From Halobaculum sp. XH14 (GTDB lineage Archaea > Halobacteriota > Halobacteria > Halobacteriales > Haloferacaceae): DNA of 64,000 nucleotides. The position numbers were made by a program, and so were the translations under genes. The DNA is taken from contig NZ_CP134949.1 in NCBI RefSeq assembly GCF_032116555.1, positions 3,038,001 through 3,102,000 on the forward strand, given 5' to 3'. Below the pieces are notes generated by a model. It saw only the letters and a program-made list of their open reading frames with translations, was not told where the DNA came from and made no database searches. Below, in pieces: positions 9,375 to 42,854 of the stretch (position 1 is its first letter; every line of letters starts with the position of its first letter).

Positions 9375-12300
9375 ATGAGGCGGGTCCTCTCGCTCGCCGT
9401 CGTGGTGGTCGTCCTGCTCGGGAGCGTCACGGTCGCCGGGACGGCACCCTTGGCCGGGGTCGCGGCCGCGGCCGGCAACGGCGCGACCCTCTCGGTGACG
9501 ACCGTCTCGACGAACGGGCCGGTCGACGCCGGCGGGACCCTGACGGTCGAAGCGACGGTCGAGAACGTCGGCGACGACGCCGGGGGAACGCCCGTCAGCC
9601 TCGCCGTGAACGGGACGAACGTGGACGACGAGACGGTTTCGCTTGCGGCGGGCGCGAACGAGACGGTCACGCTCTCGTACGACGTGCCGTCCGGCGCGGA
9701 CACCGGATCGCTCGTCGCCACCGTCTCGACGGCGAACGACAGCGCGGAGCGGACGGTCTCGGTCGACGGCAACGAGACGCTGTCGGGGACGCTGACCGAC
9801 GGCGCGACCGGCGACGCGCTCCCGGGCGTGACCGTGACGGTGGACGACGGCGAGCGCACCCGGACCGTCCAGACCGACGCCAGCGGCACGTACTCGGTGA
9901 CGGTGCTGAACGCCTCGGCGGTCACGGTCTCGGCGACCGCGACCGTCGCCGGGGTCGAGGAGTCCGTCGAGATCAACGGGTCGAACGCGACGACCGTCGA
10001 CGGCCCGACGACGCTCGACCTCGAACTGTATCCCGAACTGCCCGGATCGGGGACGGAGGACGATCCGTATCAGATCGGGAACGCCCGCGAGTTGCAGGCG
10101 ATGAGTCAGGACCTCTCGGGGCACTACGTACTCGTCGACGACGTGAACGCGAGCGGGGCGGCCGACTGGAACGGCGGGAAGGGGTTCGATCCGGTCGGGA
10201 CGACGGACGACCTTACTGATCCGGACCCAGCGACCATGTTCGCGGGGTCCCTCGACGGGCAAGACCGGTCGATAACGGGCCTCTCGATCAACCGCTCTAA
10301 CGAACTGGCCGTCGGACTGTTCGGTGCGGCAAGCGATCCGACGGTCTCGAACGTCTCGCTCGTCGACCTCGACGTGACTGGGGCGTCGCTCGATGACGTT
10401 GGAGATATCACCGCGACTGGCGGACTAGTCGGAGTAACTGCTGGCCTCGACGCGTCTTCGATTGATGCGTCAGGTTCTGTTAGTACAGGTCATTTACAAG
10501 GCGGCCTCGTCGGCGGTTGGTTTGACTCGAATAACCCGATGTCTCTCGAACTCAACAACGTCAGTTCAACCGTCGACGTGACCACCGACGAGATTACGTA
10601 TAGCAGTGGTGGGGTCGTCGGAATCTGGAGGGGTCCAGCGACGATCAAGGACTCTCGGGCAACCGGTGATGTTGTTGGCATTGGAGCTAGCGCCGGCGGA
10701 TTTGCCGGGTCCCTAGATCGAGCGGAACTCACCAACGTCTCGGCGACTGGAACCGTACGGCCGCCGGACGGTAAACAGGTCAACAGAGCTGGCGGGCTCG
10801 TTGGTGAGCTCGAAGATGGAAACGTTAGCCGCTCGGCTGCAACCGGCGATGTGCGCACTGACGGCGGAAATTACGCTGGTGGATTGATCGGTGATAGCGA
10901 CGGAATGGTTTCCATCAACGAGTCATACACGACGGGGAACGTGAGCGGTGAGAGCTATGCTGGTGGGCTTATTGGCACCGATGCCGTGGAGATTTCGAAC
11001 TCCTACGCCACCGGAACGGTAGAGAGTAACAACTGGGCCGGAGGTTTCGTCGGGAGCGAAGCAGCCAGCATTTCCAACTCCTACGCCACAGGGTCCGTTA
11101 ACGGCAGCGACGTCGGCGGTATCGCCGGTGAATTAGTCAGTGAAATGACGAACGTCTACTGGAACGCGAGCACGGCGGCGAACGCTACCACTTCCGGTGC
11201 CGCTACGGGAGCAACTGGTCTCACGCCCGCTCAGATGACCGGCGCGAACGCCACTAAGCACATGGACGGCCTCGACCACGAGACGACCTGGCTCGCAGTC
11301 GAGGACGAGGACACGTATCCGGTGCTCGGCTGGCAGGTCGAGTCATACGACCTCGCACTCGCCGACGACGAAATCGACGTGGGGAACACAACCGAGGCGA
11401 CGGTCGACGTCACGTTAGCCGACGGCACACAGGCGACCGCGACGGCCACCTCGAACTACACCACCGAGGGCAACGTCTCGGTCGACGACGGGACCGTCAC
11501 CGCTGACACCTACGGGACTGACACCGTGATCGCTTCCGGGGGCGGCCTGTCCGATTCGGCGTCGATCACCGCGCTCGGGTCGGGTTTCCAGGTCGAGAGC
11601 GTCGACGGCCCGGCCGACGTGAACGCCGACGAGACGTACTCGTTCGAGGCGACCGTCGCGAACGTCGGTAACGTCGAGGGGACCGGGAACGTCACGCTCT
11701 CGTTCGACGGCACCGAGCTAACCGACGAATCGGTGACGCTCGCCGCGGGCGAGCGTAGGACGATTACCGTGGAGTACACGATTCCCGCTGACGCCGACAC
11801 CGGCACGGTCGACCTGAACGCGACCACGCCCGACGATAACGCGACCGCGGCGGTCGCGGTCAACGGGTACCGGACGCTCTCGGGCACGCTCACTGACGGC
11901 GTGAGCGGCGAGAAACTCTCGGGCGTCGACGTACTCGTCGACGGTGTTGTCGTCGCTACTACGAACGCCAGCGGCTACTACGAGGGCCAGGCTCACGACA
12001 ACGCGACCGTCGAGGCCGGCGCGACGGCGACCGTCGTGGGAGCCGAGGGTGACGTCGAGATCACGGCGACGAACGGGACGACCATCGTCGGGAACACGAC
12101 CGCGAACCTGACGCTGTGGGCGGAACTCGACGGCGATGGAACCGAACAGTCGCCGTACGAGATCGGGAACGCCTACGAACTTCAGGCGATGAGCCAGGAC
12201 CTCTCGGCGAACTACACGCTCGTCTCCGACGTAGACGCGAGCGGAACTGCTGCGTGGAACGACGGCGCGGGCTTCGACCCGATCGCCGGCGATAACGACG

Positions 12301-15300
12301 TGATTTTCTCGGGGACCTTCGATGGCGACGATCACGCCGTCGAGAAACTGGCGATCGATCGCCCCGGAGAGAACAACGTCGGACTGTTCGGTACGACGAA
12401 CGGGACCATCCACGACGTCGCGCTCGCGAATGCGTCGGTCGTCGGAGACAACCGCGTCGGTGGCCTGGTTGGGATTAACGAGGGAGCGATCACGAACGCG
12501 ACGGTGAGCGGATCGGTTCGTGGAACCACTCCAGTCGGCGGATTAGTTGGCGATTTGGAGGCCCCCGTCACGAACGTCTCCGCCACGGCGAACGTGAACG
12601 GTTCGAGAGCGGTTGGTGGACTCGTCGGCGAGCAGAGTACCCACGGGGCGATCGATCGCTCGTGGGCGAGCGGAACCGTGACGGGAACCAGTAGTGATAT
12701 CGGCGGACTGATCGGGCAGTCTCAGGGATACCCGTCCGTCACCAACTCGTGGGCGAGCGGCGACGTAATCGGTGACGGGGCCACCGGATACGTCGGCGGA
12801 TTCGGTGGGAACATCGAACCGGTCCTGTCGAACGTGAGCGCCACCGGCGACGTGACGGCACCGGACGCCGACAGCGTTGGCGGGCTCGTCGGGGCGGCAG
12901 CCGCGGGAGAAATCACGAACACGCGGGCCAGCGGGAACGTAACCGGCGACGAAGAAGTCGGCGGCCTGATCGGTTACGCGTACGAGACCTCCCGATCGTA
13001 CGCGACCGGGACCGTGACCGGCAACGCATCGGTCGGCGGGGCCATCGGATATATTTCGTCCTACGGCTCGACTACCGACGTCTACTGGGACGTGAACGCG
13101 ACGGGCCGGATCGCCTCCGCCGGCAACGCGACCGGGCTCACGACCGCGAACATGACCGGCGCGAACGCCACCGAGAACATGGCCCTGGACTTCGAAACAG
13201 CCTGGGGGCCGACGACCGGCTATCCCCACCTCCGCTGGAACGACGCCCGGGCGGAACCCGTCTTCGCGGTGACGACCGTCGAGCCACCGGCCACCGTCGC
13301 CGCGAACCGGACGCTCGCCGCGAACGCGACCGTCGAGAACGTCGGTGCCGCCGACGGGGCGAAGGACGTGACCCTCTCGTTCGACGGCACCCCGATCGCC
13401 ACGAAGTCGGTGACGCTCGCCGCGGGCGCGAACGAGACGGTCAGCATCGAGGGCCTCGTGCCCGCAGACACCGCGCCCGGCGAGTACGAGGTCCTCGTCA
13501 CGTCACCGGCCGGCGGCGCGGCCAGCGCGACCGTCGAGGTGAAGACGCTCAACACGCTCTCCGGGACGGTCACCGACGGCGTGTCGGGCGATGCGCTCGA
13601 CGACGAGACGGTGGTGGTCGAGTACGCCTCCGGAAGGGCGAAAACGGTCCAGACCGACGCCACGGGCTCGTACACCGTCGAGGTGTTCGACGGGAGCGAG
13701 GTGACCGTCTCCGCTAACGTGACCGCCGACGCGATCGAGAACCCGCAGATCAACGACTCCGCGACATTCACCGTCGATGGCGACGAGACGGTCTCCCTCG
13801 AACTGTGGCCCGAACTCGACGGCGAGGGGACCGAGGCGAACCCGTACGAGATCTCGAACGCCTACGAGTTGCAGGCGATGAATCGGGACCGGTCGGCCGA
13901 CTATCAACTCGTCGAGGACGTCGACGCGAGCGGGACTGCCGAATGGAACGACGGGAAGGGGTTCGACCCGGTCGGCGACAGCCTCGCCGCCAGTTTCACG
14001 GGGACCCTCGACGGTGACGGGCACACGATCACGGAGATGACCATCGACCGGCCTGCAGGGAGCAACGTCGGGTTGTTCGGCTTCATGAACGGTCACGTCT
14101 CGAACGCCACGATACGTGACGCGACCGTTACCGGCGACGAGTCGGTCGGCGGACTCGCCGGCGACCTCTTCGGTTCGGTGACCAACCTGTCGGTGTCTGC
14201 GAACGTCAGCGGCACCGAAAACGTGGGTGGCATCGTCGGCTATCACTCGGGGACGGTGGACGCATCGGCTGTTTCGGGGACCGTCAGTGGAACCGAGGAC
14301 GTGGGCGGGCTCGGTGGCAACGCGGATTCATCGGCAACGGTAACTGATTCCCACGCCGCAAGCACCGTCAGCGGGGCCGAAGAGGTGGGCGGACTCGTTG
14401 GCTCCCTCGCGAATGCAGGAACAGTCGAGAACTCCTACGCGATCGGCGACGTTTCCGGCGACTCCCAGGTTGGCGGTCTCCTCGGGAGCGCGGGTTCGTA
14501 TTCGACGGTCACCGACGCCTACTGGGACGTGGACGCGACGAACCAGTCAACCTCCGCCGACGACGCAATCGGACTCACCACCGACCAACTGACCGGCGTC
14601 GCACCGCTTCAGACCATGTCCGGGTTCGACTTCGAGACCACCTGGCAGCTCTCCACCGGCTACCCGCAACTCCGGTCCCAGGGGCTCGCACCCGTCGGCC
14701 CGCTCGCCATCGAGCACGTCGAGGCCGACGGCGAGGTCGTCGAGGGCCGTCCGCTCGCGGTGACCGTGACCGTCGAGAACGTCGGTGACGCGACCTCGGA
14801 CGGACGGGTGAGGCTGGCCGCCGGCGGCGAGACGGTGAACCGATCGGCCGAACTGGCGCTCGCTCCGGGGGAGAACCGGACTGTCACCCTCGAATGGACT
14901 CCGGAGGACGTATCCTCGGGCACGCACGCGCTGACCGTCGCGTCCGCCTACGACGACGACGCCACGACCGTCCAGGTCGTGGGTATCGGTTCGGTCGAGG
15001 GCACCGTCACCGACGACGTGACCGGCGAGCCGATCGCGGACGCGACCGTCACCGTCGGGAACGGCACGTACGGGCCGTACGACGCGACGACCGGCGCGGA
15101 CGGGTCGTTCGCGCTCGCGGACGTGCCAGCGGGCGATTACGAGGTGACCGTCGACGCCGACGGCTATCACGGCGAGACGACGGCGGACGTCGCGGTCCAC
15201 GACGGTGACGCGACGGACCTCGGGACGCGAACGCTGACGGGCAACGCTTCGATCAGCGGGACCGTCGACGGAGCGCTCTTCGACACCCCGCTCGGGAACG

Positions 15301-17138
15301 CCACTGTGACGGCCGCGAACCCCGGCGGAACGTACACCGCACGGACCGCCGTCGACGGCACGTACACCATCGACGGCGTCCCCGGGACCGGCGACGCGTA
15401 CGCCATCGTCGCCGACGCGAACGGATACGAGCCGAACGCGACGGCCCACACGCCCGTGACCGTGTTCGAGGGCGCGGCCGTCACCGGAATCGACGCCGCG
15501 CTCGCCGGCGACGCCACGCTCGACGCGACCGTCCTCGACGCGCGGGCCGTCGGCACCCACGGCATCGAGGACGCCGACCTGCGACTCACGCGGACCGCGG
15601 ACGGCGCGTCCGTCACGTTCGAACACGCGACCGACGCGAACGGGACCTTCTCGCGCGCCGTCCCCGGTACGGGGGCCGACTACGAACTGGCGGTCGCGGC
15701 CGACGGTTACCTGTCCGCGAGCGAGGCGGTCGGCACCGTCGGCGGGGGCGACTCCGTCGGCGTCGACGCCGAACTCGTCGGCGACGCCACGGTCGCCGGA
15801 ACCGTCACCGACGACGTCACCGGCGAACCCGTCGCGAACGCGACCGTCACCGTCGGGGACGGAAACGGAACGTACCGCGCCGAGACCGACGTCGACGGCG
15901 CGTACGCGGTCACGGTTCCGGGGACGGGCAGCGACTACGCGGTGACCGCCCAGCCGGACGCCCCGTTCCGGACGGCGGGCGCGACGAACGCCACCGTCGA
16001 CTCCAACCGGACCGTCACGGCGGACCTCGCGCTCGGACGGGTGTCGACGTACGTCGCCGTCGACGCGCTCGGTTCGCCCGGCACGGTCGAGGAGGACGAC
16101 CGCTTCACCGTGACCGCCACGGTGACGAACCTCGGCGCCGACGGCGGAAACGCGACCGTGGAGTACCGCCGCAACGGCACCGTCGTCGACTCGGCGACCG
16201 TCTCGCCGGACGCCGGGAACGCGACGGTCGTCACGTTCGAGGACGCAATCGGCGAGCCGGGGACGTACGTGCTCGGGGTCCGAACCGCGGACGAGACGGT
16301 CTCGAACTCGATCGACGCCACCCGAGCGACCGGTGGCGGCGGCTCCGACGACGACGGTGGTTCCGCCGGCGACGACGACGGGTCGGCTTCCTCCGGCGAG
16401 CCGGACGACGTGGCGACGGTGGCCGCCGAGATGGACACCGACGGCCACGCCACCGCGACCGTCTCGGACGGTGCCACGGGGACGGTCCGAGTCGAACTCG
16501 GCGACCTCGTTCGAGACGACGCGAGCGGCACCGCGATCACGCGGGTCGACCTCTCGCTCGACCGGGGCGGGAGCGACGTCACGTTTACCGCCGACTCGCT
16601 GTCCGAGCGGCCGGCGGGGACGAGCGGCTTCAGGCCGGAAGGCGGTGCTTCCGCGTCCGAGGCACTCGCTTACTTCGAGCTGACCGCCACGGGCGAGGAC
16701 GGGGACGATAGCCAGCGTCTCGACTCGGCGACGGTCCGCTTCGCGGTCGAGGCCGACCGGCTCGAAGGGGACGAACTCGACCGCGAGAACGTCGTCCTCC
16801 ACCGGTTCGACGAGGACGACGGGGAGTGGGAGGCGCTGGAGACTGCGGCCGTCGAAACGACGGACGGGCGGGTCGTCTACGAGGCGACCACCCCGGGCTT
16901 CTCGGTGTTCGCGGTCGGCGCGGGGAACGGCTCCGCCGACGACCCCGGTGGCGCGTCGACACCCGACGGCGGTACAATCCTGACCGAGTCACCGACGCCG
17001 ACGGGAACGCAGCCGTCGAGCGTCGGCACTACCGACGCGGACCAACGGTCGACGAACACCGAGGGTCCCGGGTTCGGGGGTGCCGTCACGCTCCTCGCGC
17101 TCCTCTCCGTCGCGTTCGTCGTTCGGCGGAGGGCGTAG
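9375..17138 (+). CDS. Giant modular PGF-CTERM surface glycoprotein (CARDB, carboxypeptidase-regulatory and GLUG repeats)
   Basis: The product has 2587 residues. A Sec signal peptide (1-34, ending VAAAAG) is followed by three similar blocks: CARDB-like adhesion domain, carboxypeptidase-regulatory-like domain, then a GLUG-repeat region beginning at residues near 221, 916 and 1480 (each opens with a GTE..PY.I.NA.ELQAM segment). A fourth CARDB (about 1774) precedes tandem carboxypeptidase-regulatory domains (1869-2220), a fifth CARDB-like domain (2222-2315), a Gly/Asp/Ser linker (2320-2343), a PGF-pre-PGF domain (2345-2515), a Thr/Ser-rich stalk and the PGF-CTERM signal (PGFGGAVTLLALLSVAFVVRRR). 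Archaeosortase A probably processes and lipid-anchors it. There are many N-x-S/T sites. GLUG block 1 (about 10380-11200) is clearly poorer in G+C than the rest. Likely adhesin or cell-wall function. Confidence 0.9.
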   Translation: MRRVLSLAVVVVVLLGSVTVAGTAPLAGVAAAAGNGATLSVTTVSTNGPVDAGGTLTVEATVENVGDDAGGTPVSLAVNGTNVDDETVSLAAGANETVTLSYDVPSGADTGSLVATVSTANDSAERTVSVDGNETLSGTLTDGATGDALPGVTVTVDDGERTRTVQTDASGTYSVTVLNASAVTVSATATVAGVEESVEINGSNATTVDGPTTLDLELYPELPGSGTEDDPYQIGNARELQAMSQDLSGHYVLVDDVNASGAADWNGGKGFDPVGTTDDLTDPDPATMFAGSLDGQDRSITGLSINRSNELAVGLFGAASDPTVSNVSLVDLDVTGASLDDVGDITATGGLVGVTAGLDASSIDASGSVSTGHLQGGLVGGWFDSNNPMSLELNNVSSTVDVTTDEITYSSGGVVGIWRGPATIKDSRATGDVVGIGASAGGFAGSLDRAELTNVSATGTVRPPDGKQVNRAGGLVGELEDGNVSRSAATGDVRTDGGNYAGGLIGDSDGMVSINESYTTGNVSGESYAGGLIGTDAVEISNSYATGTVESNNWAGGFVGSEAASISNSYATGSVNGSDVGGIAGELVSEMTNVYWNASTAANATTSGAATGATGLTPAQMTGANATKHMDGLDHETTWLAVEDEDTYPVLGWQVESYDLALADDEIDVGNTTEATVDVTLADGTQATATATSNYTTEGNVSVDDGTVTADTYGTDTVIASGGGLSDSASITALGSGFQVESVDGPADVNADETYSFEATVANVGNVEGTGNVTLSFDGTELTDESVTLAAGERRTITVEYTIPADADTGTVDLNATTPDDNATAAVAVNGYRTLSGTLTDGVSGEKLSGVDVLVDGVVVATTNASGYYEGQAHDNATVEAGATATVVGAEGDVEITATNGTTIVGNTTANLTLWAELDGDGTEQSPYEIGNAYELQAMSQDLSANYTLVSDVDASGTAAWNDGAGFDPIAGDNDVIFSGTFDGDDHAVEKLAIDRPGENNVGLFGTTNGTIHDVALANASVVGDNRVGGLVGINEGAITNATVSGSVRGTTPVGGLVGDLEAPVTNVSATANVNGSRAVGGLVGEQSTHGAIDRSWASGTVTGTSSDIGGLIGQSQGYPSVTNSWASGDVIGDGATGYVGGFGGNIEPVLSNVSATGDVTAPDADSVGGLVGAAAAGEITNTRASGNVTGDEEVGGLIGYAYETSRSYATGTVTGNASVGGAIGYISSYGSTTDVYWDVNATGRIASAGNATGLTTANMTGANATENMALDFETAWGPTTGYPHLRWNDARAEPVFAVTTVEPPATVAANRTLAANATVENVGAADGAKDVTLSFDGTPIATKSVTLAAGANETVSIEGLVPADTAPGEYEVLVTSPAGGAASATVEVKTLNTLSGTVTDGVSGDALDDETVVVEYASGRAKTVQTDATGSYTVEVFDGSEVTVSANVTADAIENPQINDSATFTVDGDETVSLELWPELDGEGTEANPYEISNAYELQAMNRDRSADYQLVEDVDASGTAEWNDGKGFDPVGDSLAASFTGTLDGDGHTITEMTIDRPAGSNVGLFGFMNGHVSNATIRDATVTGDESVGGLAGDLFGSVTNLSVSANVSGTENVGGIVGYHSGTVDASAVSGTVSGTEDVGGLGGNADSSATVTDSHAASTVSGAEEVGGLVGSLANAGTVENSYAIGDVSGDSQVGGLLGSAGSYSTVTDAYWDVDATNQSTSADDAIGLTTDQLTGVAPLQTMSGFDFETTWQLSTGYPQLRSQGLAPVGPLAIEHVEADGEVVEGRPLAVTVTVENVGDATSDGRVRLAAGGETVNRSAELALAPGENRTVTLEWTPEDVSSGTHALTVASAYDDDATTVQVVGIGSVEGTVTDDVTGEPIADATVTVGNGTYGPYDATTGADGSFALADVPAGDYEVTVDADGYHGETTADVAVHDGDATDLGTRTLTGNASISGTVDGALFDTPLGNATVTAANPGGTYTARTAVDGTYTIDGVPGTGDAYAIVADANGYEPNATAHTPVTVFEGAAVTGIDAALAGDATLDATVLDARAVGTHGIEDADLRLTRTADGASVTFEHATDANGTFSRAVPGTGADYELAVAADGYLSASEAVGTVGGGDSVGVDAELVGDATVAGTVTDDVTGEPVANATVTVGDGNGTYRAETDVDGAYAVTVPGTGSDYAVTAQPDAPFRTAGATNATVDSNRTVTADLALGRVSTYVAVDALGSPGTVEEDDRFTVTATVTNLGADGGNATVEYRRNGTVVDSATVSPDAGNATVVTFEDAIGEPGTYVLGVRTADETVSNSIDATRATGGGGSDDDGGSAGDDDGSASSGEPDDVATVAAEMDTDGHATATVSDGATGTVRVELGDLVRDDASGTAITRVDLSLDRGGSDVTFTADSLSERPAGTSGFRPEGGASASEALAYFELTATGEDGDDSQRLDSATVRFAVEADRLEGDELDRENVVLHRFDEDDGEWEALETAAVETTDGRVVYEATTPGFSVFAVGAGNGSADDPGGASTPDGGTILTESPTPTGTQPSSVGTTDADQRSTNTEGPGFGGAVTLLALLSVAFVVRRRA

Positions 17139-34463: not shown

Positions 34464-34868
34464 TCACCAGACGGTCTCGACGTTCCCGTCCTCGAACGCG
34501 CCGTCGGTCGTGATGACCGCTTCCGTGGTATGTGCCCGATGGCTCGCAATCACGAGTCCGTCGTGAAGCCCGAAGCAGTCGGCGATCCGTCCGTACTCCC
34601 TGAGCACTTCGCCCGTATCGGGTGGCGTCGTGACGGGGCCGTTCGCGAGGAGCGCTTGCTGTGTCGCTTCCGGCGTTCCGACGAGGTCGATTCCCCTGAC
34701 TGTCTTGTCACGAGCGACCGCGTAGAGTGTTTCCGCGACCGTCGTCGGCGGTGCGTGGATGATCGCTTCGCCCGCCTCGGCCTCGGCGAACAACCGGTCG
34801 GCGCGTCGAGGGAGTGCGTCGACGAGGTACGTCAGCAACGCGACCGCATCAGCGGTGTAGGCCCGCAC
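34464..34868 (-). CDS. PIN-domain toxin (VapC-like)
   Basis: The product has 134 residues. PIN acidic residues are seen: Asp7 in AYTADAVALLTYL, Glu about 46 in TTVAETLYAVA, Asp in FGLHDGLVIASH and the terminal Asp in VITTDGAFED. Probably a Mg-dependent ribonuclease. It follows the AbrB-type antitoxin by 3 nt on the same strand. With it, it separates two epimerase genes, as if inserted into a glycan cluster. Confidence 0.85.
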   Translation of the reverse strand: MRAYTADAVALLTYLVDALPRRADRLFAEAEAGEAIIHAPPTTVAETLYAVARDKTVRGIDLVGTPEATQQALLANGPVTTPPDTGEVLREYGRIADCFGLHDGLVIASHRAHTTEAVITTDGAFEDGNVETVW

Positions 34869-34871
34869 GCG

Positions 34872-35132
34872 TTACACCTCGTCGTAGTTACGCTCGCGGC
34901 GTTCACGGAGACTGTCACGCAGTTCGGCCGCGACCGCATCCCGTTCGGACTCGGAAGCATCGTCCGGCAGGAGCATCCCACGCGCATCGGTCTTGGTCCG
35001 TTTCTTGACGAGGATTCCGCTCTCGGTTTCCACCCAGAGCACCTCATCGCCCGGCTCCAGTCCGTATCGTTCACGGAGCGATTTCGGTATCGTCGCCTGT
35101 CCCTTCTCCGTGATTCGGGTCGCCTCGCTCAT
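34872..35132 (-). CDS. AbrB/MazE/SpoVT-type antitoxin
   Basis: The product has 86 residues. The SpoVT-AbrB swapped-hairpin domain is clear (TRITEKGQATIPKSLRERYGLEPGDEVLWVETESGILVKKR), followed by a tail (LLPDDASESERDAVAAELRDSLRERRERNYDEV) that should bind the toxin. It should repress its own promoter through the AGTAATAC palindrome immediately upstream. Confidence 0.88.
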   Translation of the reverse strand: MSEATRITEKGQATIPKSLRERYGLEPGDEVLWVETESGILVKKRTKTDARGMLLPDDASESERDAVAAELRDSLRERRERNYDEV

Positions 35133-36222: not shown

Positions 36223-36522
36223 CTACTGCATCGACACGTACGTGAGCGCCGCCAGGGCGACGAACTGGAGCGCGCGCATCACGAGCACCGTCATCTGCGA
36301 GGCGGGCGTGGCGGCGTACAGCATGCTCGAACTGAAGAAGAAGCCGATGGCGACGAGGTTCTCCACGAGCAGGACCGCGGCGAACGTCAACAGCCCCAGC
36401 GTCAGCGGCGTCCGGAACTCGCGGTAGTTCCGCCACCAGACCGCGACGAGCGCGGCCAGCAGCAGGACGTTCAGCCCGGAGAGGGCGCTTGCGACCGTCA
36501 GATAGGGTGTCATCGTTGCCAT
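36223..36522 (-). CDS. Small three-helix haloarchaeal membrane protein (DUF7521-like)
   Basis: The product has 99 residues with three hydrophobic helices (about 8-28, 40-62, 72-97). The ends of helix 1 (WWRNYREFRTP) and the LVENLVAIGFFF segment resemble small haloarchaeal membrane proteins that travel with ArsR-like HTH genes. The start is 1 nt after the HTH gene stop, so they form a two-gene operon. The same arrangement occurs at 41772-42854. Function unknown. Confidence 0.72.
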   Translation of the reverse strand: MATMTPYLTVASALSGLNVLLLAALVAVWWRNYREFRTPLTLGLLTFAAVLLVENLVAIGFFFSSSMLYAATPASQMTVLVMRALQFVALAALTYVSMQ

Positions 36523-36523
36523 G

Positions 36524-36796
36524 TCAGACGTGCTCCGTGATCTCCTCGAACTCCGCCCGGTGGCGCTCGAACCGGTCGGTGAGGAAGTACAGTTTGCCGT
36601 ACTGCTGGTCCCCGCTCTCGATCACGCCGTGGTCCTCCAGCATGTCGAGGTGGTGTCGAACCGAGTTGTAGTCGATGTCGAGCTCCCCGGTGAGCTGGTT
36701 CGCGTTGTGCGGCCGCTCGTCGAGCAGGCGGATGATCGCCGCCCGGTTGGTGCCCCCGCGCGTGCCGGCCAGCAGGTACCAGAGTGCCTTCTCCAT
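36524..36796 (-). CDS. ArsR-like winged-helix regulator
   Basis: The product has 90 residues, essentially only a winged helix: GTNRAAIIRLLDERPHNANQLTGELDIDYNSVRHHLDMLEDHGVIES, then a wing (QQYGKLYFLTDRFERHR) and a short helix. No metal-binding Cys are present, so the signal is not a thiol-bound metal. It is coupled to the small membrane protein downstream, which may be its target or its signal source. Confidence 0.85.
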   Translation of the reverse strand: MEKALWYLLAGTRGGTNRAAIIRLLDERPHNANQLTGELDIDYNSVRHHLDMLEDHGVIESGDQQYGKLYFLTDRFERHRAEFEEITEHV

Positions 36797-36909: not shown

Positions 36910-38478
36910 TCACAGCGACGACGGGTCGACCGTCGCCGACACCCAGCCGCTCGGCCCGCTGGGAAACGCCCGTGACTCCTCCCGCGGCTGGACGGTCCCG
37001 TCGGCCTCGACGGCCCGGACGACGGCCTCGTGGCTCCCGTCGGGCGGGTCGTACCGGTGGGCCCACTGTCGCCACACGTCCTCGCCCGGGAGCGGCTCCG
37101 AGAGGTCCGCCTCGGTCCACGTCCCGCCGCCGTCGGTCGACACCTCGACGCGATCGATCCCGCGCGTCCCGGCGTAGGCCGCGCCCGCGAGTTCGACGCG
37201 GCCGTCCGCGAGCCGGTTGCGGACCCAGAGCTTGGCGACGGTGTTGACCGGTCCGGTGCCGTGCCAGCCGCGCTTCTCCCAGTACCCCTCGGCCTCGCCG
37301 TCGAGCACCTCGACCTCCGTGAGCCACTTCACGTTGATCTCGCCCCAGTGGCCCGGAATCAACGCCCGCGCCGGCGCGCCGTGGCCGCGCGGGAGCGGCC
37401 CGCCGTTCATCCCGACCGCGAGGAACCCGCCCTCGCGCAGCGCCGCGATGGGGAACTCCTCGAAGAAGCCGTCCTCGGCCCGGAGCATCACGTACTCGCC
37501 CTCAGGGTCGGCCTGCTCGACCAGGTCGGCGAGCGAGACGCCGGTCCAGAGCGCGTTGTCGAGTTTGTTGCCGTTCAGCCCCTCGCCGACGCAGCGGAGC
37601 GAGACGAACCGGTGCTCGTGTTCCATCGCGTCGACGTCCGCGAAGGTGAACTCCGTCTCCGACCCGACCGCGCCGTGGACGCGGAGCGACCAGTCCTCGC
37701 GGGAGAGGTCCGGGTCGACGTTCGCCACGTCGACGGTGTAAAAGGAGTCGCTCACGAGCGGCTCCAGCCCGGCGACGTCGAGCGACTTCTCCTCGGCTTC
37801 GGCGAGCAACGCTGCAACCTCGTCCGACGACGAGGACGCAGAGCCATCGGCGGAGTCCATGGAATCGGTTTCGGCCGACGTGGACACGCCGAGCGTACTC
37901 GCGACTGACCGTCCGCCTGCGCCCAGCAGGCCGACGCCGAGTGCCGCGGCGACGCTCGCGAGCACGGACCGTCGCGCGGCGTTCGGTGTCCCATCCGCGC
38001 TCCGATCGTCTCCGTCCCGCTGTCCGCCCCGTACCGCGGTGAGGACGGCAGGAGCGGCGACCACGACGGCGGCACCGACCCCCGCGGCGGCGGCAGAGCG
38101 CGGCGAGTCGACGAGCGCGAACCCAAACAGGGCGACGCCCAGCCCCGCGACGGCCGGCGGCCCGGCCCGGTGGCCCACGCGTCCTCCGAGCCACAGTCCG
38201 AGTCCGGCGACGAGCGCGAGCAGGAACGCCGCGGTCGCCAGCCCGCCCGCGAACGCCAACTGGCTGCCCAGGCTGCCGAGAGTCGTGATGGCGACCGTGA
38301 CGACGGTCCCGGGCGTGAGCCGCACCACCTCGTTCGCGATGGGCGCGCCGACGAACGCCGGCGTGATACCGACCGCGGCGTAGGAGGCCACGAGCCCCGC
38401 GACTCCGGCGCTCAGGGCGACGACTGCGGAACCCACCTCGGTCGAAACCGACCCGAACCGCTCACGAACGGGGGTCAT
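36910..38478 (-). CDS. Membrane-anchored sulfite-oxidase-family molybdopterin oxidoreductase
   Basis: The product has 522 residues. The first about 190 residues hold about five membrane helices (near 15-37, 55-73, 76-97, 108-124, 128-148) and a last RR-preceded helix (AARRSVLASVAAALGVGLLGAGG, 168-190) that looks like an internal Tat-type segment. The molybdopterin domain follows, with Cys296 in SLRCVGEGLNGNKLDNALWTGV as Mo ligand, PLPRGHGAPARALIPGHWGEINVKWLTEVEV, and a C-terminal Mo-co dimerisation domain (VEVSTDGGGTWTEADL). It should face outside. SUOX-fold enzymes oxidise sulfite or reduce methionine sulfoxide (MsrP/YedY) and other S/N-oxides. The overlap (ATGA) with the Met-rich gene suggests joint function. 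Confidence 0.87.
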   Translation of the reverse strand: MTPVRERFGSVSTEVGSAVVALSAGVAGLVASYAAVGITPAFVGAPIANEVVRLTPGTVVTVAITTLGSLGSQLAFAGGLATAAFLLALVAGLGLWLGGRVGHRAGPPAVAGLGVALFGFALVDSPRSAAAAGVGAAVVVAAPAVLTAVRGGQRDGDDRSADGTPNAARRSVLASVAAALGVGLLGAGGRSVASTLGVSTSAETDSMDSADGSASSSSDEVAALLAEAEEKSLDVAGLEPLVSDSFYTVDVANVDPDLSREDWSLRVHGAVGSETEFTFADVDAMEHEHRFVSLRCVGEGLNGNKLDNALWTGVSLADLVEQADPEGEYVMLRAEDGFFEEFPIAALREGGFLAVGMNGGPLPRGHGAPARALIPGHWGEINVKWLTEVEVLDGEAEGYWEKRGWHGTGPVNTVAKLWVRNRLADGRVELAGAAYAGTRGIDRVEVSTDGGGTWTEADLSEPLPGEDVWRQWAHRYDPPDGSHEAVVRAVEADGTVQPREESRAFPSGPSGWVSATVDPSSL

Positions 38479-38900
38479 CGCGTCCGGGCGTACCCCAGCG
38501 CCACCGTCCCGACCACGAGCGCGGCGAGGAACGCGGGTACGCCGAACCCGGGCCCGAACGCGGTCGATTCGTCCGTCGAGTCGGCCATCCCCCCGTCCAT
38601 GCCGGTCCCGGTCATCCCCGAGTCGGTCATTCCGGTCCCGGTCATCCCCGAGTCGGTCATTCCGGAGTCCGTGGTACCGGAGTCGGTCATCTCGTCGTCC
38701 ATCCCGGCTTCCGTCCCCGTCATCGAGTCGTTCATCCCCGTCTCGGTCCCGTTCTCCTGTGCGTTCGTCGACTCCGCGAAGCCGTTCAGGTCGGTCGCAG
38801 CGGCCGCGTTCGTGGCGGCCAGCGCCCCCGTCACGCCGACGGCGAGCAGGACCGTCGCCGTCACGAGCAGGGTGCCGACCGCGAGGGTGGGTCGTCGCAT
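38475..38900 (-). CDS. Methionine-rich PGF-CTERM surface protein
   Basis: The product has 141 residues. A Sec signal (RRPTLAVGTLLVTATVLLA...GALA) is followed by an acidic Asn/Thr linker, then a repeat region with ten methionines at 56, 60, 67, 71, 81, 86, 91, 96, 101 and 105 (pentads MTDSG and MTGTG). It ends in GPGFGVPAFLAALVVGTVALGYARTR, a PGF-CTERM signal, so an archaeosortase should anchor it outside. Its stop overlaps the molybdoenzyme start by 4 nt. Methionine-rich exported proteins paired with YedY-type enzymes are known as sacrificial scavengers of hypochlorite in bacteria (MrpX). That role here is an inference. Confidence 0.8.
   Translation of the reverse strand: MRRPTLAVGTLLVTATVLLAVGVTGALAATNAAAATDLNGFAESTNAQENGTETGMNDSMTGTEAGMDDEMTDSGTTDSGMTDSGMTGTGMTDSGMTGTGMDGGMADSTDESTAFGPGFGVPAFLAALVVGTVALGYARTR
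38586..38690. repeat. 15-nt coding tandem repeat (MTDSG/MTGTG pentads)
   Basis: Seven consecutive five-codon units inside the Met-rich gene, with nearly identical DNA in the middle (TCATTCCGGTCCCGGTCATC-type). The repeat number could change by slippage between strains. Confidence 0.65.
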
Positions 38901-39070
38901 CACCGATGGGGAGGGGAGGCTTCCCAAAAGGGATTTTCTGAGGTCTCTCCCGGCTCTCTGTGGGGTTCGTGAGGAGTCGATCGAAACTCCGTCTAGAGTT
39001 CACCTCGACCGGGACCGTCAGCAGACGACCGGAGCGGGAGAGCGTGATTCGAACGCGGCGAGAAGTCGAT

Positions 39071-41573: not shown

Positions 41574-41771
41574 CGTTCGGGTCGGTCTGGCGAGCGTGCA
41601 AGCCGTCCGCGGGGATCGAGTCCCCCGCCGCCCCAGCACCACGGGAGATGAGCGGCGCGAACGCGACGGCACGTGGGACGGGTCGGGGCGGGGCGGTCGG
41701 ACGGCTCCCCGTCGCCGGCACGGGCCGGACAGTCGGGGGACTTTTGCTCCCGGGTCGGGACACGAGCCACG

Positions 41772-42122
41772 ATGGCCGATGACGGGGACGTGACCGGCGT
41801 CGTCGACCTCCTGGGCGACGATTACGCCCGGACCATCCTCACGCAGACCCGGCGGGAGCCAAAGTCCGTCGACGCGCTGAGCGACGCCTGCGAGGCGGAT
41901 CCGTCGACCGTGTACCGGCGCGTCCAGCGGCTCCAGGCGGCCGACCTGCTGGAGGACCACCAGCGGCTCGACCCCGACGGCCACCACTACAAGGTGTACG
42001 CCGCGAGCGTCCGGGAGGTCCGGGTCCGGCTCGACGAGGACGGCTTCGAGGTCGACGTCGAACGCGACCCCGAGGAGAACGCCGCCGACCGCTTCACCCG
42101 ACTGTACGAGGGATTCAAATGA
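41772..42122 (+). CDS. ArsR-like winged-helix regulator
   Basis: The product has 116 residues. The HTH core is VVDLLGDDYARTILTQTRREPKSVDALSDACEADPSTVYRRVQRLQAADLLEDHQRLDPDGHHYKVY, with a C-terminal strand-helix (VRVRLDEDGFEVDVERDP). The stop overlaps the following membrane gene (ATGA), so the products are made together. Same gene pairing as at 36223-36796 but the HTH is only distantly similar. Confidence 0.86.
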   Translation: MADDGDVTGVVDLLGDDYARTILTQTRREPKSVDALSDACEADPSTVYRRVQRLQAADLLEDHQRLDPDGHHYKVYAASVREVRVRLDEDGFEVDVERDPEENAADRFTRLYEGFK

Positions 42123-42493
42123 GAGCCACGCACCACCTCCCATCGCTCCCGACGATCACGGCGCTACCGACGGTCACGTCGCCGCTCCCGCTTCAGACGA
42201 CGACCGGCGGGTCGCCGACGGTGGTGCTGCTCGTCTTCGCGGCGCTGTTCGTCGCGACGCTGCTCTCGATGTATCTCGCCCTGCGGCTCTACCGCGGCTA
42301 CCGGACCGGCGGCGGCCGCGGAACGCTGCTGCTGGGGGTCGGCCTCGTGCTCGTGACGACGGTGCCGCTGCTGGTTCGGCTCGCGCTCTCGAACGTGCCC
42401 GCCGTCCCGCCGACGACCCGCTCCATCGTCGCCACGGCGAGCCAACTTGTCGGCCTGCTGGTCGTCCTGGGGGTGATCCATGACCGCCGGTGA
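42119..42493 (+). CDS. Small three-helix membrane protein cotranscribed with HTH gene (DUF7521-like)
   Basis: The product has 124 residues. A Thr/Pro-rich N-terminus precedes three helices (about 33-55, 70-90, 100-120). The loop ALRLYRGYRTGG after helix 1 is repeated in related form in the next gene (AYRGYRRND), showing a tandem duplication. Overlaps both neighbours (4 nt and 14 nt), so the three genes are tightly coupled. Confidence 0.75.
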   Translation: MRATHHLPSLPTITALPTVTSPLPLQTTTGGSPTVVLLVFAALFVATLLSMYLALRLYRGYRTGGGRGTLLLGVGLVLVTTVPLLVRLALSNVPAVPPTTRSIVATASQLVGLLVVLGVIHDRR

Positions 42494-42854
42494 CCCCACG
42501 GTCGGCATCCCACCGGCGACCGTCGTCGAACCGGGGAGCGTCGCCGACCTGGCGAGCGTCCTGCAAGCGATGGCACCCCTCGACCCGGCGAGCGTGCTGT
42601 TCGTGACCGCGGCCGCGACGGCGCTCGTCGGCGCGGTGGTCGCCGCCATCGCGTACCGGGGCTACCGCAGAAACGACAGCGAGTCGATGGGATTCCTCGC
42701 GCTCGGCATCGTCTGTTTCGCCGTCGCGCCGTTCCTGTTGACCTACGGCGTCGGGCCGGTCGCCGCGCTCTCGGACGCGGAGACGCTGCTCTCGGTCCTC
42801 TGTGCGAACATCGCGGGGCTGCTCGCCGTCCTCCACTCGCTCGACGGCGTCTGA
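42480..42854 (+). CDS. Small three-helix membrane protein, paralogue of the preceding gene
   Basis: The product has 124 residues with three helices (about 37-58, 70-90, 97-120) and AIAYRGYRRNDSESMGFLALGIV matching the loop and helix 2 pattern of the previous protein. The start overlaps the previous stop by 14 nt. The pair may form a heteromeric membrane partner of the HTH regulator. Function unknown. Confidence 0.74.
   Translation: MTAGDPTVGIPPATVVEPGSVADLASVLQAMAPLDPASVLFVTAAATALVGAVVAAIAYRGYRRNDSESMGFLALGIVCFAVAPFLLTYGVGPVAALSDAETLLSVLCANIAGLLAVLHSLDGV

Follow-up and report, generated by a model that had tools for sequence, protein, structure and literature searches.

The haloarchaeon Halobaculum sp. 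XH14 encodes, in one operon, a short Met-rich exported protein (P0002) and a membrane-anchored molybdoenzyme of the sulfite oxidase (SUOX) fold (P0001), and this pairing recurs among haloarchaea much more often than chance would produce. The best explanation, to which we assign a probability of roughly 60%, is that the Met-rich protein acts as an oxidant sink at the haloarchaeal cell surface and is kept reduced by the molybdoenzyme. YedY-type molybdoenzymes of Azospira reportedly reduce MrpX, an exported Met-rich protein that serves as a sacrificial hypochlorite scavenger. Coordinates given below refer to the window, namely the whole 64,000-nt stretch analyzed here (NZ_CP134949.1, positions 3,038,001 to 3,102,000), and the features of the operon are collected in Table 1.

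Table 1. Features of the Met-rich protein/molybdoenzyme operon in window coordinates.
Feature	Position	Strand	Remark
Met-rich exported surface protein P0002, 141 aa	38475..38900	(-)	
P0002 signal peptide, residues 1-29	38814..38900	(-)	hydrophobic N-terminus; boundary inferred
P0002 Met-rich tract, residues 56-105	38586..38735	(-)	10 Met/50 residues, MTDSG/MTGTG pentads
P0002 PGF-CTERM-like anchor, residues 117-141	38478..38552	(-)	anatomy only, HMM without match
ATGA stop/start overlap, Met-rich gene/enzyme gene	38475..38478	(-)	
Membrane-anchored sulfite-oxidase-fold molybdoenzyme P0001, 522 aa	36910..38478	(-)	
P0001 N-terminal membrane domain, residues 1-197	37888..38478	(-)	about five long helices; twin-Arg ahead of the last one
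P0001 Oxidored_molyb domain, residues 256-400	37279..37713	(-)	
P0001 Cys296 codon, predicted Mo ligand	37591..37593	(-)	conserved 166/166
P0001 Mo-co dimerisation domain (PF03404), residues 422-502	36973..37215	(-)	absent from MsrP
Winged-helix (ArsR/HTH_20-like) regulator, downstream partner	36524..36796	(-)	
Small 3-TM protein, downstream partner	36223..36522	(-)	no Pfam family
Promoter-like element GAAAATCCCTTTT	38926..38938	(-)	TTGAAAAATC at the same place in relatives

The translation of P0002 bears out what an earlier note on this DNA had read from it, namely an exported protein of 141 residues with ten methionines in 50 residues arranged as MTDSG/MTGTG pentads. These methionines occupy positions 56, 60, 67, 71, 81, 86, 91, 96, 101, and 105, thus falling within exactly 50 residues, and Cys, His, Trp, Tyr, Lys, and Arg are all missing from the tract. 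The claim of a PGF-CTERM anchor stands in part. The C-terminal end, PGFGVPAFLAALVVGTVALGYARTR, presents PGF, a hydrophobic stretch, and RTR in the expected order, but the PGF-CTERM HMM (TIGR04126, cutoff 24.5 bits) does not match P0002, although counterparts elsewhere pass it (L223, 42.6; L234, 35.9). In 12 further PGF-CTERM-type proteins encoded by this genome, the 80 residues preceding the motif contain 0-1 Met. P0002 was also considered as a Spondin_N or DUF7482 member, which was ruled out since neither domain is present. Elsewhere in the window, the gene at 9375-17138 (+) encodes a PGF-CTERM surface protein of 2587 aa that combines GLUG, CARDB, and carboxypeptidase-regulatory domains; an ARAGORN tRNA-Gly call inside this gene, at 15000-15091 (-), is doubtful.

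The overlap of the Met-rich stop codon with the enzyme start codon, described in the earlier note, is present in the window, and the identical 4-base overlap recurs in Halorussus (L235, L248) and Halostella (L249, L275). The operon extends beyond the two genes described there, with a winged-helix (wHTH) gene and a gene for a small protein with three transmembrane helices (3-TM) following the enzyme gene. The two products would regulate the operon; the window copy of the regulator has no Cys and scores 28 against a cutoff of 55 for metalloregulators. A TTGAAAAAT element stands before the first gene at 22 of 25 Met-rich loci, 11 of 31 regulator-only loci, and 4 of 54 others. A direct-repeat operator, TTTGNACGGA, was sought upstream as well, and no 120-bp stretch with three copies was found; the repeat does not occur in the window. 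The wHTH and 3-TM genes also precede Met-poor Spondin_N lipoproteins at enzyme-free loci in many Haloferax (g9) genomes (L172-L192), and the pair may therefore regulate several surface proteins. A similar set lies at 41673-42854 (+) of the window, where two small membrane proteins, one of which is DUF7521, are encoded directly after another wHTH gene. At 34464-35132 (-), a MazE-type antitoxin gene adjoins a gene for a small PIN-like protein (no Pfam match), likely a toxin-antitoxin pair.

A search for SUOX-fold genes beside Met-rich exported proteins, as the earlier note had recommended, reveals a recurrent haloarchaeal pair. The 879 kb surrounding 80 named enzyme genes contain 16 genuine Met-rich exported proteins, all of which occupy the slot directly upstream of the enzyme (16/80 loci), against an expectation of 0.3; six further Met-rich matches in these 879 kb proved, on reading, to be antisense or otherwise spurious. 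Filled slots occur, among others, in Haloarculaceae H-GB1-1, Halomicrococcus, Halorussus aquaticus, Halostella, Halorientalis marina, Natronomonas aquatica, Halobaculum, Halonotius, Halogranum, Haloferax mucosum, Halobellus, and Natrinema. When 113 loci of enzyme homologues within the family were divided into 58 with the wHTH/3-TM pair (or one of the two genes) nearby and 55 without, a Met-rich exported protein, defined by at least 5 Met per 50 aa, directly preceded the enzyme at 25 of the former and at 0 of the latter. The two counts are not independent because some of the named loci come from the same genomes as the family loci, and a clade-corrected test of the regulator pair against the Met-rich gene yields only a suggestive result (median p 0.06).

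The tract is carried by at least four unrelated scaffolds, namely the PGF-CTERM type, a short TAT lipoprotein, a Spondin_N lipoprotein, and a DUF7482 lipoprotein, and so the tract, rather than its scaffold, seems to be the conserved element. Spondin_N proteins outside the slot contain 1-3 Met per 50 residues. The single exception, also an exception to the pairing, is a Spondin_N lipoprotein of G167 (L321, G167:C1:389500-398500) with 10 Met in 50, encoded far from the enzyme. More than half of the operons have no Met-rich gene. The earlier note had held that absence of this gene from close relatives would refute the proposed pair; the gene is indeed absent from all 11 Haloplanus loci, whose enzymes are the closest, and this in part contradicts the proposal. 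On a quick tree of 166 enzymes, with several long branches, the Met-rich label requires 25 changes, and at least 14 of these changes are forced by well-supported branches; gain, loss, or replacement of the Met-rich gene is therefore frequent.

An approach independent of the enzyme employed the bacterial MXKDX profile (TIGR02953, cutoff 41 bits), run on 391 class genomes. Matches were obtained in 11 genomes, 8 of them with exported Met-repeat proteins once the frames were read. Six of these eight proteins directly adjoin the enzyme (L326, L327, L328, L329, L332, L335), one adjoins the regulator pair (L330), and one adjoins neither (L334); the remaining matches are not exported or not Met-rich. 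L223 (47.7 bits), L326 (45.4), and, together with its neighbours in frame, L327 (43.3) all pass. P0002 itself scores 8.3 bits, below the cutoff, and has the layout of the MXKDX kind, being exported, bearing a Met about every 5 residues, and lying beside a SUOX-family enzyme. Simple DNA patterns for the pentads often matched out of frame or within membrane proteins, and they were relied upon only once the frames had been read. In G046 and G047 the enzyme is missing, and the regulator pair comes directly after the Met-rich gene. The protein that adjoins neither (L334, in G378) is exported and built of MANETM repeats, ends in a PGF-CTERM-like sequence, and has no enzyme within 1.5 kb. Shorter Met-containing segments were noted in transporter lipoproteins of G001, which carry an EGEMTEGEM linker, and in a multicopper-oxidase-like lipoprotein (L319) with an MGGGGM loop.

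The AlphaFold2 model of P0001 (mean pLDDT 86.6) agrees with the SUOX fold and the roughly five membrane helices ascribed to it earlier. Its long membrane helices (residues 4-36, 69-99, 106-123, 126-151, and 167-197) lie ahead of the catalytic part, and Cys296, the predicted Mo ligand, kept in every one of the 166 homologues, is the sole Cys of the protein. The accompanying assignment to the YedY/MsrP type does not survive. Domain searches, the model, and structural matches all reveal the two-domain make-up (Mo and dimerisation domains) of sulfite oxidases and sulfite dehydrogenases; SoxC, SorA, and sulfite oxidase resemble the structure most closely (Z 25-29 over about 285 residues), whereas MsrP/YedY reaches Z 17.9 over 194 residues. 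The MsrP equivalog (NF003767) gives 47.3 bits against a cutoff of 207, and a search of the enzyme's own genome for an MsrQ-like (Ferric_reduct, PF01794) protein returned no match. Nor are the cutoffs reached for SorA (98.6 of 600 bits), SorT (89.8 of 570), or SoxC (85.2 of 420). P0001 is sulfite dehydrogenase/SoxC-like in fold and domain make-up and is not a member of the YedY/MsrP family. A second enzyme copy (G000:C1:2082515-2084017; L002, L214), 51% identical, has neither the regulator pair nor a Met-rich gene beside it; the end of a PGF-CTERM protein lies about 2 kb from this copy.

Comparison of homologous sequences shows that P0001 lacks residues that sulfite oxidases use. The position of SorA Arg55 is mostly Asn, Glu, Thr, or Gln in the homologues (Asn in 25/35 Met-rich loci); Asn is also found near this position in E. 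coli MsrP. Trp takes the position of SorA Tyr236 in 166/166 homologues, as placed by offset from the aligned W231-K233. After the Mo Cys, the P0001 family has V-G-E/D-x-L and SorA has S-G-N-S-R (the CSGNSR motif), a comparison made by direct reading of the SorA sequence, this segment having been misplaced by MAFFT.

In the proposed oxidant sink, the Met-rich protein would, after export, stay anchored on the outer face of the cell, and strong oxidants such as hypohalous acids and peroxides would react there with its densely spaced thioethers to yield methionine sulfoxide. The molybdoenzyme, translated together with it and predicted to have its catalytic domain outside the membrane, would reduce these sulfoxides with electrons drawn from the respiratory membrane, and the sink would therefore be reusable. 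The operon, the anatomy of export and anchoring, the recurrent association, the enzyme fold, and the differences at the active site are observed. We infer quenching by the tract and repair by the enzyme because of the bacterial analogue, the near-exclusive presence of Met among reactive side chains, and the oxygen-atom chemistry of the enzyme family. The pair statistics, the unrelated scaffolds, the Met-only core, the Met-poor Spondin_N linkers elsewhere (with one exception), the label changes forced on the enzyme tree (at least 14), the HOCl resistance conferred by bacterial MXKDX proteins with MsrPQ, and the non-sulfite-oxidase residue pattern all count in favor of such a sink. Counted against it are the SoxC-like fold, the lack of an MsrQ-like match in the genome, the majority of operons without a Met-rich gene, and the Met-rich exported proteins found away from the enzyme in G167, G046/G047, and G378.

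Were P0001 instead a sulfite or sulfane dehydrogenase feeding the respiratory chain, the Met-rich product would be an unrelated surface protein of the same operon. The dimerisation domain and the ranking of SoxC, SorA, and sulfite oxidase as top structural matches point that way, but the variable residue (N/E/T/Q) at the Arg55 position, the exchange of CSGNSR for C-V-G-E/D-x-L, and the offset-placed Trp at the Tyr236 position argue against it, and it would not explain why a Met-rich partner recurs on different scaffolds; we consider this unlikely. Met-rich tracts of known copper proteins bind soft metals, and Cu(I) sites typically space their methionines as MxM or MxxM. A tract that binds Cu(I) or Ag(I), in an operon for metal handling, would be in keeping with the former property, with the weak ArsR/metalloregulator similarity of the regulator, and with the MGGGGM loop of L319. 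This tract, however, offers no His or Cys ligands and spaces its methionines by 5 or 4, the Cys-free regulator of the window falls well below the metalloregulator cutoff, and the Mo enzyme would have no evident role, which leaves metal handling very unlikely.

We rate lower still a role of the Met-rich protein in redox sensing, in which the regulator and the 3-TM protein would read its oxidation state and the enzyme would reset it. G046 and G047, with Met-rich, wHTH, and 3-TM genes and no enzyme, would suit such a sensor; the length and sequence of the tract are nevertheless highly variable, unlike a sensor surface, and many operons possess the regulator pair without the Met-rich gene. Least credible of all is that the repeats merely reflect chance expansion of low-complexity linkers in GC-rich DNA. 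Tandem pentads do change fast between relatives, and a short EGEMTEGEM linker exists in the transporter lipoproteins of G001, but other PGF-CTERM linkers of the genome hold only 0-1 Met per 80 aa, the slot is enriched (16 versus 0.3 expected), and Spondin_N linkers are Met-poor unless upstream of the enzyme, G167 excepted.

If the surface oxidant sink is correct, the pair would explain how the outer surface of some extreme halophiles is protected against oxidants, and a bacterial solution would have been reached again with a different reductase. The pair offers a concrete, testable combination of substrate and enzyme in many haloarchaeal genera, cultured ones included (for example Haloferax mucosum, Halorussus, Halobellus, and Halonotius). 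It is possible, and we suggest it tentatively, that a regenerable Met-rich sink originated independently in haloarchaea, based upon a membrane-fused reductase of the sulfite dehydrogenase type instead of MsrPQ and upon anchored scaffolds of at least four unrelated kinds; P0001 would then represent an undescribed class of protein-methionine-sulfoxide reductase.

According to a review of Msr enzymes in archaea, members of the sulfite oxidase family are widespread there and not known to act on MetO (PMC6211008), and our limited search of the open-access literature found no description of an archaeal Met-rich protein/enzyme pair. BcrX, an MXKDX protein of Brucella, is a homologue of the Azospira scavenger; the operon that encodes BcrX together with MsrQP is induced by HOCl and protects the cells from HOCl (PMC8315932). 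Like MrpX-YedYZ of Azospira suillum and BcrXQP of Brucella melitensis (PMC4623255, PMC8315932), the archaeal operon joins an exported Met-repeat protein to a sulfite-oxidase-family Mo enzyme, and some archaeal partners exceed the MXKDX cutoff. Unlike those systems, the archaeal enzyme includes a fused membrane domain and a dimerisation domain and has no MsrQ match in its genome; its partner is surface-anchored and acidic, with MTDSG or MDDES in place of MXKDX; and the regulators are a wHTH and a 3-TM protein rather than an ECF sigma/anti-sigma pair. P0001 shares with MsrP (YedY) the fold of the Mo domain and a single Mo-ligand Cys, with Arg just ahead of it in most copies, and differs from it in its dimerisation and membrane domains and its low equivalog score. 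With SorA/SorT, SoxC, and sulfite oxidase it shares the two-domain fold, while differing in the unconserved sulfite-pocket Arg and Tyr positions, the membrane fusion, the Met-rich partner, and scores far below the equivalog cutoffs. The earlier proposal of an archaeal counterpart of MrpX/YedY is thus upheld for the recurrent pair and its members above the MXKDX cutoff but not for the enzyme, which is not a YedY/MsrP; if the oxidant sink exists, the pair would work like MrpX-YedY with an enzyme that still stands outside the MsrP family.
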